Shown in pieces: positions 25,317-31,441 of a DNA stretch of 64,000 bases; positions within the stretch are counted from its first letter, which is position 1; every line of letters starts with the position of its first letter. The DNA is from a virus: positions 1-64,000 of IMG/VR virus record IMGVR_UViG_3300009545_000023. The stretch is one strand, 5' to 3'. The position numbers and the translations under genes were made by a program. The notes beneath the pieces were generated by a model that did not search any database, had not been told where the DNA came from, and saw only the letters and a list, made by a program, of their open reading frames with translations.

Positions 25317-25748
25317 CTATCGCCCTCCCAGCACGTAATAAAGGGCAGACAGCAGCACCAACCCGCCGACGACATTGCCGACGATTTGAGCGGCGTACAA
25401 CCAATCAATCGAATCGTCTTCCTCGCCTGTCCGTGTCACCTCGCAAGCCGCAGAACCAATCAGCGGCACAGGTGAGCAGTGTGTCGTCTCTGGGTGCTGA
25501 CTGAGCAGGTAATCAACGGGATCGATCTGCTCACGGTAAACATGCCCGGTTCGACTCCACACCTCGCCACGGTCGCGGCAGGGTTTGCATTGCTCGGCGT
25601 CGGCGTCCTGAACAAAAAGCGGCGCAGGGAACAGGGTTTCGAGCGGCACGACACGGAAACAGCGCTCACACGGGCTTTCGTGCTTGGCGGGACGTTGCGG
25701 CGTGTCAGCGGTGAACGTGACGAGGCGTAGATGGTTGGGGCGTTTCAT
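25317..25748 (-). CDS. Cysteine-rich protein with C-terminal membrane helix
   Basis: 143 residues from ATG 25746-25748 (MKRPNHLRLV), which overlaps the methyltransferase end. An N-terminal CERCF and CKPCRD pair suggests one zinc site. Residues ~115-140 are a membrane helix (AAQIVGNVVGGLVLLSALYYV). It may be a membrane-anchored zinc protein; no family recognised. Confidence 0.6.
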   Translation of the reverse strand: MKRPNHLRLVTFTADTPQRPAKHESPCERCFRVVPLETLFPAPLFVQDADAEQCKPCRDRGEVWSRTGHVYREQIDPVDYLLSQHPETTHCSPVPLIGSAACEVTRTGEEDDSIDWLYAAQIVGNVVGGLVLLSALYYVLGGR

Positions 25749-27094
25749 AGAACCTCCGTGAGTGAGCGCATCAGAGCGGCCATAAAGAGCGGGGGAACCG
25801 CGTTCCCTACGATGGTTTGAGCAACGCCGGGTTTGCAGTTGAACCGGTAGGAGTCGGGAAACGTTTGGAAGCGGGCGATGCAACGGGCGGGATCGCCTTC
25901 CGGCTGTAACTTCACGACGCGATAGTCACGCTGCGCGAAGAGTTCCTGCTGATCGGGTTCCGTTCCGTACAGGACGTGCCGTCCTGTACGGCCTCCCTCG
26001 CCTGCCATTACTGTGACCATCGGTTTATCGTCGGGTAGCGTCGTTGGCGGTCGCTCACCGGTTGATGCACCTTCAATGAAAAGGGCGCGAAGTTTACCTG
26101 CACCGTCAGCGGTCAGCGTCGGGCAAGGGATGGAGGGCGGGACCGCGATATCTCCTGCCTCACCGTTGATGCGGATCAGGGCGCGTAGATTGTTCAGCGA
26201 ACCCGTCATGGTGTACGCCGGGTCTAAGTCCTTCGGCGCAGGGAACCAGGGATTATCGGCGTTCGGGTGAGGCAGGACCGCTCTAAACGGATGCTTGTCA
26301 ATGGACGCCGTTATCGTTGGCGCGGGTGCCTCTCCATCTCGCGTCATGGGCGCAGCGTCACCGAAGGACGAAGGGATTCCCGCAACTTGTTGCGGGAAGA
26401 TGGCTTTCTCTCTCAGTCGCTTTTCCTGCCATTTCGCTAGTTTGGTCTCAGGACATCGCGGGAGCAGATCGGCAATCGCGTCGTACCAACCGCACCAAGG
26501 CAAGAGTGGCGCAGCGGCGAACATATCCATCGTCTTCCCGGCGAGTTTGGACCGCTCACAGTGTGTCGGCAGGAACATCGGAATCGTGTCGCTCACATCT
26601 CTGCGGACAGCACGAACGATAAGGCGCTCACGTGTTTGTGGAATACCGAAATCTGCGAAATTGAACACGTCGTACTGAACTATGTAGCCCTGAACGTAGA
26701 GCATGGCGAGGATGGATTTAAACGACTCCGAATGCTCATAGGCGCGGACATTCTCCAGCGTGAACAGTTTTGGGCGGATCTCAGCAATAGCGCGACAGAT
26801 CGCGTTTGCACAGGTGATTTCAAGTTCCGATTCCTTCCCGTTCGTGTTCGCGACAGAAAAGACCGTGCAGGGCGGGGAACCGTGAAAGTGGTCAGCACCG
26901 GCAAGCGATCGGTAATCGACTGCCCGCACGTCGGCACAGCGCAGGTGCTTGTCTCCGAAGTTATCGGCATAGACCTCGCAGATTTTCGGATCGTGTTCGA
27001 CGGACAGGACGACAGAGCCGCCCGTCGCCATGACACCCATTTCGACGCCACCGCCGCCGCTAAAGGTCACGACTGAGGTATAAGGCTTGCTCAC
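25745..27094 (-). CDS. C5 cytosine DNA methyltransferase
   Basis: 449 residues from a GTG start that overlaps the previous stop (GTGA). All core motifs are present: FSGGGG (I, ~11-16), GSPPC with Cys76 (IV, the nucleophile), ENVR (VI, ~114), QTRERL (VIII, ~153), and GNAVPP near the C-terminus (X). It methylates cytosine in a specific site, probably protecting phage DNA from host restriction. The target recognition part (~190-380) is long and unusual. No restriction enzyme lies beside it. Confidence 0.9.
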   Translation of the reverse strand: MSKPYTSVVTFSGGGGVEMGVMATGGSVVLSVEHDPKICEVYADNFGDKHLRCADVRAVDYRSLAGADHFHGSPPCTVFSVANTNGKESELEITCANAICRAIAEIRPKLFTLENVRAYEHSESFKSILAMLYVQGYIVQYDVFNFADFGIPQTRERLIVRAVRRDVSDTIPMFLPTHCERSKLAGKTMDMFAAAPLLPWCGWYDAIADLLPRCPETKLAKWQEKRLREKAIFPQQVAGIPSSFGDAAPMTRDGEAPAPTITASIDKHPFRAVLPHPNADNPWFPAPKDLDPAYTMTGSLNNLRALIRINGEAGDIAVPPSIPCPTLTADGAGKLRALFIEGASTGERPPTTLPDDKPMVTVMAGEGGRTGRHVLYGTEPDQQELFAQRDYRVVKLQPEGDPARCIARFQTFPDSYRFNCKPGVAQTIVGNAVPPLFMAALMRSLTEVL

Positions 27095-27675
27095 GCTGCA
27101 CCTCCCTCTTCGCAATCGACTTCCTCACCCGCGACGTAGGATTCTTCCAAATCCTCGTTGGCTTTGTCGCCGCCCTTCGTCTCGAAGTCGTCCACCCACA
27201 CGAACGACCACACATCAAATCGAACGCTGGGGTGTTCCTCTGAAAGACGCTTCGCCTCCGCTGACCAATCGACCGAGCAAGAGCGGATAGACAGGCCGAA
27301 CACATCAAGTTCAGCGGCTTCGAGATCGGCAACAGTCGTGACACCGGGAATCATCACAGCGCAGATTTCGCGGTACCGGATTGGTCCCTCCCAAACGTCA
27401 GCAAACACCGTGTCTTTCTCCTCATCGCGGTACATCGTGTGATCGACCGGCAGGGCGAATTGATCGGCGGCAGGACTCGGCATCAGGTCAGCACCAGCCA
27501 TGAACGGCAACACAGTGTTTGCAAGGTGTCCCGGCATTTCCGCATAATCGCCCGCGTCGAAAAAGGCGTCGTTTGGCATCGGGATTGGTCCGGCAGGAAG
27601 CACGGGCACATCGACCGGTTCAAACTCCGCTTTGCCGGTCTCGGCGTCGAAATGGATCAGGGAGACGGTTTTCAT
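27091..27675 (-). CDS. Unknown protein upstream of the methyltransferase
   Basis: 194 residues, acidic, with several predicted strands (MKTVSLIHFDAETGKAEFE; DVWSFVWVDDFETKGG). It overlaps the gene before it by four bases. No motif recognised. Confidence 0.55.
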   Translation of the reverse strand: MKTVSLIHFDAETGKAEFEPVDVPVLPAGPIPMPNDAFFDAGDYAEMPGHLANTVLPFMAGADLMPSPAADQFALPVDHTMYRDEEKDTVFADVWEGPIRYREICAVMIPGVTTVADLEAAELDVFGLSIRSCSVDWSAEAKRLSEEHPSVRFDVWSFVWVDDFETKGGDKANEDLEESYVAGEEVDCEEGGAA

Positions 27676-29413: not shown

Positions 29414-29565
29414 AGCTACCTCTTTACAGGAATCCGCCGCGCTCTTGGTGGCTCCGGCGCATCGGTGCTGCCTGTATACGCTATTTAGATTGCGATTGTT
29501 GCCTTTCATTTTCTGTGATAGAATCCCTTCAGCTTTTGATTTTTTCTTTCGCCTTTTGGCGGTGC

Positions 29566-29590
29566 CCGCTCTCATGGAGCGGGCTTTTCT
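29566..29590 (+). terminator. Hairpin with terminator form on plus strand
   Basis: GCCCGCTC, a 4-base loop and GGAGCGGGC followed by TTTTCT form a rho-independent type structure in plus orientation, beside the pentamer array. No plus gene ends here, so it may block antisense transcription or act as an RNA hairpin in the leftward transcript. It is part of a longer leader element repeated near 31.45 kb. Confidence 0.5.
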
Positions 29591-29596
29591 ATTTCT

Positions 29597-30337
29597 TGCC
29601 TGCCAATCCACCCGTGCCATCCTCTACACACCTCGGCTTGCCATGCCTGCCTAACCAAACCGGGACACGCCATACCATGCCGCGGCATACCCAACGCGGA
29701 CTGACCAAGACATGCCTGCCTTACCTGACCAAAACACGCCAAAACTGGCCCCACCATAACTCGCCTGACCGCGCCAACCGTGCCAAGCCTGCCTCAACAG
29801 GCCCGACCTCAACGCGCCACACCTGAAACAGCCAAAACATGCCTCGCCTGCCTTGCCGCACCTGGACTCGACTAGACTAACCAAGCCAGAACCGACCTAA
29901 CCGGAACTTGCCCCGCCTGCCACACCTCGCCAATCCGTGACCGGACGTACCACGCCTTGCCTACCTCACCAGTCCCTGACAGAACCAGGCTGACCCGACC
30001 TAAACACGACCTGCCTGCCTCGCCAAAACTACCTTGCCCCGAACGGCCCCGCCGCAACCCGCCTTACCTGCCATGCCCGGCCCGGCCAAGGCCCAACATG
30101 CCCCGAATTGCCTGACCGTGACTGACCCAACCTCGCCTGCCATACCCCACCAAACAACGCCATAACGAGACTAACCACGCCTGCCCCACCATGCCACGAC
30201 TTACCGTGCCAAGACGCGCCGAGAAAAGCCGTGCCTGCCAAGACTCACCGCACCTCACCAAGCCGCACACCGCCATGACACACCGGGCCTGCCGAACCAA
30301 GCCATGACAAACCACGACGTACCCCACCTCGCCTGCC
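29597..30337. repeat. ~740-bp array of degenerate 5-bp units (NNRMC on the plus strand)
   Basis: About 145 units follow without a break. Each ends R-[A/C]-C, and most end GCC, ACC, AAC or GAC; on the minus strand every unit starts G[G/T][C/T]. About a dozen times an NNGCC unit is followed by a 4-base TGCC, giving GCCTGCC at 29598, 29645, 29714, 29787, 29846, 29915, 30013, 30135, 30179, 30233, 30287 and 30331. Outside coding genes; all six frames are broken. It lies between two genes of the leftward early operon. Function unknown. Possible roles are a replication, recombination or protein-binding array, or a structured RNA. Confidence 0.85.
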
Positions 30338-30341
30338 TAGA

Positions 30342-30830
30342 TCAGATATGAACCTTCTTTTCGATGACGCGCTGTTGCAACTCGTCAACGCCTTGAAGCA
30401 GATCGGAGAACTCTTTGAGGCTTTCCAGTTTGCGGCGAGTGGTGGCGAGGTCTTTTGCCACCTCATCCAAAACCTGAAGGCGTAGATCGGGATCGATCAT
30501 CACTGCCTGCACCGACTCGTAGGAGGAGTCTTCTTCGATAACCACATGGCAGAAAGCCCGTACTGGTTGCGCGAGGTCTTCACCGTTCGGCGTTGTAGCA
30601 ACGACCACAGAGCGGATAATTTGACCTGCCTGCTCCAACCGCCAGCGCGTCGCGGCCTTCTGATCGTCCCACTCGAAATACCGATGCAGCAGGTTGTCTT
30701 CCGGTGTCGCCGCCTCAACGACCAGGGGAGCAGTCAAACTCCCCTTCTCGTCGCGGATCGCTTGCAGTGCCTCGCCGACCGCCTGCGGATCACCGGGCAT
30801 TCTCGCTGTTTTTGCGAACTTATAGACCAT
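30342..30830 (-). CDS. Unknown conserved-looking phage protein
   Basis: 162 residues from ATG 30828-30830 (MVYKFAKTARMPGDPQAV). Features: FEWDDQKAATRWRLEQAGQIIRSV and a C-terminal coiled coil (LATTRRKLESLKEFSDLLQ). The start overlaps the previous stop (TGATG). It lies just before the pentamer array. I do not recognise a function. Confidence 0.6.
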   Translation of the reverse strand: MVYKFAKTARMPGDPQAVGEALQAIRDEKGSLTAPLVVEAATPEDNLLHRYFEWDDQKAATRWRLEQAGQIIRSVVVATTPNGEDLAQPVRAFCHVVIEEDSSYESVQAVMIDPDLRLQVLDEVAKDLATTRRKLESLKEFSDLLQGVDELQQRVIEKKVHI

Positions 30831-31441
30831 CAGGAACCTGCCGCTCCGTCCGTCTCGGTGGCGACGTGGAACATTCCGTAACTGCCGTCTTTCTGCGGTC
30901 GCCACTCGCCGACTCCAACCGCAAACCCGGCTACATTGAAGAGGTTGACCAGTTGCTCAACCGAGATCACGGAGGCGTTATAGCGAATCTCTACCGTCGC
31001 CTCCCACTTCTTGAACTCGCCACGATAGCGAATATCAGCGGTCCCCATCCCGACGCGCACCATATCCTCACGCATCGATGGCTCACCTTCGATCTTCACT
31101 AACTCGCCGTTGATGTGGAAGGAACCACGGGCCGCGACCTTGGTCACATTGGCGATATAGGAACAGGCATCGACCGCCGCCGCTTTGAATCCCACGACAG
31201 GGAAACCGTATCCGCCGTCTGGATGCTCGTACAGGGAGTCGAGATAGTCTTGCTCGGGGTTCTTAGCAGACTTGGCGGAAACCGCCTTCTTCATCTGCTT
31301 GTCCAGCATCTCTTTCTTGGCCTTCTCCGACCACTTGTGACAGATCAGGGGAGAGTCGCCAATGATGCGGACTTTGATCGTCCGCAGGTCAAGTCGAGGA
31401 AGTTCGATTACTTCCGGGGTTGGAGCAGTTTTCTTTAGCAT
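30830..31441 (-). CDS. Unknown phage protein (203 aa)
   Basis: 203 residues. Residues ~22-200 look like one well-formed alpha/beta domain (RTIKVRIIGDSPLICHKWSE; PVVGFKAAAVDACSYIANVT; VRVGMGTADIRYRGEFKKWE; NVAGFAVGVGEWRPQKDG). It is likely conserved among phages with a recombination operon. Its leader, AGAAAGAAAAAATCAAA, is repeated at 29.54 kb. I cannot name a function. Confidence 0.65.
   Translation of the reverse strand: MLKKTAPTPEVIELPRLDLRTIKVRIIGDSPLICHKWSEKAKKEMLDKQMKKAVSAKSAKNPEQDYLDSLYEHPDGGYGFPVVGFKAAAVDACSYIANVTKVAARGSFHINGELVKIEGEPSMREDMVRVGMGTADIRYRGEFKKWEATVEIRYNASVISVEQLVNLFNVAGFAVGVGEWRPQKDGSYGMFHVATETDGAAGS

Follow-up and report, generated by a model that had tools for sequence, protein, structure and literature searches.

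Viral Interference Programmable Repeat (VIPR) is a CRISPR-like system used by bacterial viruses against each other and described in a recent preprint (PMC13142463, bioRxiv 2026.04.26.720920). The system comprises Vipr, vap and vrRNA. Vipr is described as a protein of the ancestral RAMP family with an RRM core and a G-loop, and the vrRNAs are made of 9–16 YNNGG repeats in which GGY (or, as the preprint permits, "a related consensus") is conserved, the NN pairs are hypervariable and the target is read with a 1-nt skip. Type II vrRNAs are said to carry an invariable structured 3' tail; the preprint also mentions "staggered arrays with overlapping vrRNAs" (PMC13142463). VIPR has been proposed as the ancestor of CRISPR.

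The DNA analyzed in this study, a viral stretch of 64,000 nucleotides (the window), contains an array of five-base units that is almost certainly the guide-RNA (vrRNA) array of a phage VIPR system (Table 1). Like the systems described, the window combines a predicted RAMP-fold Vipr homologue with tandem GGY/NN repeats, a phage location, a small operon that includes an accessory gene, and guides of 9–14 units; its code likewise appears to pass over one nucleotide, that of the wobble position, in reading a target, and some guides of related loci appear directed against other vipr genes. Unlike them, it has guides that abut in a single 740-nt array, the junctions commonly reading GGCA/GGC (the slash marks the end of a 4-nt unit) and no structured tail being evident; moreover, part of its core is GTY where VIPR has GGY. 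The initial annotation, which knew of no described element of this form, is superseded on that point by the VIPR vrRNA (PMC13142463).

Table 1. Features of the array and its adjacent genes in the window.
Feature	Position	Strand	Remarks
VIPR vrRNA array (putative)	29600..30338	-	consensus (GGY or GTY)NN, split by 4-nt units (GGCA/GGC) into guide-sized modules
Accessory gene (vap-like), phrog_15946	30342..30830	-	conserved beside arrays
vipr, predicted RAMP (Cas7-like) protein, 203 aa, phrog_4652	30830..31441	-	PDB 36pp profile match and Foldseek
Module 1	30290..30333	-	9 units; GGCA precedes, just behind accessory gene stop codon
Module 2	30236..30289	-	11 units; no unique target
Module 3	30182..30235	-	11 units
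Module 4	30138..30181	-	9 units
Module 5	30069..30137	-	14 units; no convincing target
Modules 6+7	30016..30068	-	11 units, one internal 4-nt unit GGTA
Module 8	29962..30015	-	11 units, GGTA at end
Module 9	29918..29961	-	9 units
Module 10	29849..29917	-	14 units; target not found
Module 11	29790..29848	-	12 units; no convincing target
Module 13	29717..29775	-	NN = GC CA GA AT GG CA TT GT TT CA AA
Module 14	29648..29716	-	14 units; target not found

The periodicity of the array is real. A chain of 148 NNRMC pentamers runs along the plus strand from 29610 to 30333 with a score of 443 (shuffled sequences: mean 17, maximum 32), and identity at lag 5 amounts to 0.4375 against 0.305±0.017 (maximum 0.361) in 1000 dinucleotide shuffles; the autocorrelation test on which the initial annotation had staked its claim thus came out in its favor. 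Segmentation of positions 29600–30340 yields 135 five-nt NN-RMC units with entropies of 1.93, 1.97, 1.21, 1.06 and 0.32 bits for the five positions. The first two are close to the maximum, and the other three are constrained: R at position 3 (A.41, G.54), M at position 4 (C.69, A.27) and C at position 5 (.95). The near-maximal entropy bears out the earlier view that two bases of each unit are free, but these bases are not filler: the NN pairs hold the guide information. Selection on phase and on three positions, rather than tandem copying of a fixed sequence, remains the appropriate description, and Tandem Repeats Finder called no tandem repeat at the array. Also upheld is the absence of a coding frame, as the mechanical ORFs of 87 and 103 aa that overlap the array have no support as genes. 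Scanning both strands of the window revealed no second array; in E. coli genomes, blastn found weak matches to it only, and no array.

The "almost unbroken" series reported at first is confirmed as far as the succession of pentamers is concerned, but its phase is broken by some 14 slips, every one of −1 (a 4-nt unit), usually separated by 8–14 units. The slip unit is mostly tGCC on the plus strand, corresponding to GGCA/GGC on the minus strand. The latter, which is also the strand of the operon, is the functional one; GGC and GGT are its commonest core triplets, with GTC and GTT as minor forms. A recurrence of GG or GT every five bases on this strand had been recognized from the outset; what had been missed is that the strand would act as transcribed RNA. 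On this strand, the gene ending at 30342 has its stop codon immediately ahead of the array, whose edges are approximate. About 10% of the five-nt cores deviate from GKY, two modules include 4-nt units that are internal or odd, and the array ends in a degenerate module, all of which one might expect of a decayed, inactive relic of a VIPR array. We consider this improbable given that C is kept in 95% of the units at the last position, that the vipr and accessory ORFs are intact, and that module 13 retains a complete protein motif (see below).

Binding of RNA at such intervals has a precedent in TRAP (MtrB), a protein ring that grips an RNA triplet approximately every five bases, its sites being (G/U)AG trinucleotides about two bases apart. 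The core triplet of the window is a different one, the neighboring protein is a predicted RAMP, and the spacers of TRAP sites hold no target information. A TRAP-like RNA ring, a RecT/Redbeta filament and Rho or anti-Rho signals were considered and dropped.

By profile and structural model, the gene two places upstream of the array encodes a Vipr, a RAMP protein. The profile of its family matches the PDB entry 36pp, "SUSP1 Vipr protein", with an E value of 3.1e-19, and hhalign comparisons of the family with the ESCO50 and LESphi2 homologues gave probabilities of 98.9–99.6%. The AlphaFold model (pLDDT 92.7) was submitted to Foldseek: each of the 50 matches listed is a CRISPR effector protein, and Csm3/Cas7 RAMPs from types III and VII make up most of them (best E 4.4e-6). 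Residues G172, G176, R181 and G189 are invariant in the family. The likeness to Class 1 CRISPR-Cas (the type III Csm3 and type VII Cas7 backbones) comprises the predicted RAMP fold, the presumed periodic grip on a guide RNA and the guide array. In contrast to those systems, the window array is devoid of CRISPR-type repeats and spacers, its only recurring element being the junction GGCAGGC; NN pairs every five bases take the place of contiguous pairing, and a single small RAMP protein is present.

The accessory protein has about 162 aa when counted from a nearly invariant methionine, Met26 of the 187-aa ORF at 30342–30905, and its family is marked by the motif LHxxFEWDDxxAAxxYRxxQARxLI. Its model is confident, yet no significant fold match was found in the PDB. 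The window also differs here from the VIPR of ESCO50 (Felixounavirus) and Pseudomonas phage LESphi2, as the accessory protein has no detectable homology to their vipr-adjacent genes.

The search for arrays of the same rule in related phages, proposed in the initial annotation, was productive. We scanned IMG/VR with a degenerate pattern of a slip plus seven units, which demands one GCCTGCC per locus and leaves the other slips unselected. At least 120 stretches matched; practically all of them hold arrays, of about 60 to 1570 bp, in which the slips are almost always −1. Arrays are also present in Gordonia phage Ecliptus, Cyanophage Cy-LDV1 and Mycobacterium phage Quico. When neighboring ORFs were clustered with the arrays masked, two families recurred, A (vipr) and B, arranged as A-B-array or A-array-B; on the GGY strand, an array typically starts some 10–20 nt after the preceding gene's stop codon. 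Both families are PHROGs of unknown function, and a Pfam search of the two returned no credible match. Vipr lies within 2.5 kb in 27 of the 31 array loci that have full 2.5-kb flanks on both sides, always on the GGY strand, as compared with none of 38 control viral loci; the accessory family is conserved at 24 of the 31. The linkage also holds in reverse, since a search by the Vipr protein alone found an array near each of five genomic vipr loci. These data bear on the earlier suggestion of primase-type trinucleotide starts, many of which on one strand could serve as a replication origin. While a DnaB-like helicase and primosomal genes do lie within the window, arrays follow Vipr in unrelated phages and the NN content is informative, which leaves this reading next to no credibility.

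Of the genomic vipr genes recovered, the closest belong mostly to Hyphomicrobiales. One further locus, L145 (KE159636.1, labeled Lachnospiraceae bacterium A2), has a vipr gene 59% identical to that of the window, with an array; its label, far from the Hyphomicrobiales relatives, could reflect a mislabeled assembly or a transfer. Three loci depart from the common pattern: in the arrays of L020, L088 and L030, most slips are of +1 (6-nt units), or there is hardly any slip along 311 units, which hints at further types of array architecture.

Under the guide-array reading, the slips acquire a meaning. Over 123 loci, GGCA makes up the large majority of slip units and the intervals between slips have a mode of 10–11 units, the bulk falling between 8 and 14; arrays often open with GGCA and close with GGCAGGCA. 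The window array has about a dozen such modules, most of 9–14 units. Mycobacteriophages of the same genus have many modules in common and differ by gain or loss of whole GGCA-bounded modules. (The set compared consists of L175–L181 and L011, Mycobacterium phages of Cheoctovirus, in which vipr carries the annotation of a hypothetical protein.) We infer from this pattern that a module corresponds to a single guide, and that neighboring guides share a junction. No shared structured 3' tail was evident by eye in the 3' flanks of the arrays, and an Rfam scan of the window returned no match. The junction-sharing arrays may correspond to the "staggered arrays with overlapping vrRNAs" mentioned in the preprint (PMC13142463).

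To read the guides, 695 of them were decoded and compared with 1.17 Mb of DNA, arrays masked, allowing for 0–3 skipped bases. At E<0.005, matches were obtained for three guides with a skip of 1, and for none with a skip of 0, 2 or 3. One guide, from L069 (6586–6707), decodes to VGVGEWRPE, the vipr G-loop, and many vipr genes match it at 18–20 of 22 positions; VIPR phages thus appear to target rival VIPR systems. The other two, which come from different phages, L097 (924–1511) and L098 (2081–2594), match perfectly (18/18 and 16/16) in the same L052 gene (~754–1019), in frame, with the wobble base skipped; the label of Sak4-like ATPase for this gene comes from a reading of its sequence and not from a family search. 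The 1-nt-skip code is supported over related loci; within the window array, its support comes from a single source, the motif decoding of module 13.

It was initially proposed that a protein contacts every fifth base. The idea appears right, but the partner would be the adjacent, predicted RAMP protein Vipr and not the RecT-like, SWIM or DnaB proteins. A variant of that proposal makes the array a double-stranded DNA element to which the RecT-like, DnaB or accessory protein would bind at every half-turn, with a role in packaging, replication or partition. A 5-bp period does equal a half-turn, and the window holds replication and recombination genes. Against this stand the position of Vipr on the GGY strand in 27 of 27 cases, array starts that typically lie just past a stop codon, NN pairs whose decoding yields motifs conserved in the proteins of other phages, and the RNA-guided nature of described VIPR; we regard a DNA element as very improbable. 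Taken as a whole, the initial interpretation is partly supported.

If the array is a set of VIPR guides, its targets may be sought with the same code. Module 13, read with a 1-nt skip, gives A-[HQ]-[DE]-[IM]-G-[HQ]-[FL]-V-[FL]-[HQ]-[KN], which is compatible with the zinc motif of ImmA/IrrE proteins (Peptidase_M78), AHEIGH-LVLH. Viral matches of the module core lie in frame in Peptidase_M78 (ImmA/IrrE) and M48 genes, although these matches prove little alone because the search pattern already held the HExGH core. More telling is the recurrence of the motif: module 13 of the window and guides of L015 and L123 decode to AHE[IL]GH[LF]V[LF], and shuffled guides yielded no comparable pairs. Module 13 reads along the coding strand and the guides of L015 and L123 against it, so that the shared motif cannot be put down to common descent of the array. 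Three HExGH-like guides were seen among the 695, as against about 0.14 expected by chance, an estimate that assumes uniform bases. No Peptidase_M78 match exists in the window phage's own genome, and the target of module 13 is probably the ImmA-type gene of a competing prophage. Exact full-length targets were found in IMG/VR for none of the window guides searched; modules 2, 5, 10, 11 and 14 gave chance-like, scattered or off-frame matches only, and none was found for module 10 in 297 genomes from the order of one vipr-bearing genome.

These results, combined with the properties of other VIPR systems, allow one to envision the following sequence of events. The minus-strand operon would be transcribed in the order vipr, accessory gene, array. 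By analogy with the systems of the preprint (PMC13142463), oligomerized Vipr would bind the array RNA, either whole or in pieces of roughly module length, and one Vipr subunit might grip one GGY or GTY trinucleotide per five bases. The exposed NN pairs would then base-pair with double-stranded DNA, in a target of the form NNxNNxNN... whose skipped base is usually the codon wobble position, and binding would repress genes that belong to rival phages or prophages. A module bounded by GGCA/GGC would make one guide of about 9–14 units, that of module 13 being directed against a metallopeptidase gene of the ImmA/IrrE type. Less well described than the rest of the system are its shared-junction architecture and its accessory gene. 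With somewhat less than even confidence, we propose that the window exemplifies a tail-less form of VIPR, in which guides share a 7-nt GGCA/GGC junction and turn over as whole, spacer-like modules, the accessory protein has a new fold, and unrelated phages have converged on the gene for ImmA/IrrE, a protease of prophage immunity.

The window and the at least 120 related contigs represent an independent set of arrays whose code can be read directly. They give a name to a probable target, ImmA/IrrE, that belongs to the lysogeny switch, and they reveal turnover by whole modules in sequenced mycobacteriophages that are workable in laboratory strains. How VIPR guides are acquired and processed thereby becomes amenable to testing.

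Two features of the surroundings deserve mention. Immediately past the array at its 3' end lies a strong hairpin (29562–29596, plus strand; GCCCGCTC-TCATG-GAGCGGGC) followed by a T-rich run, for which a terminator of plus-strand transcription and a boundary structure can be suggested as alternatives. Further along, in the same operon direction, the minus strand carries a C-5 cytosine DNA methylase gene (25745–27115; Pfam E 6.9e-41).
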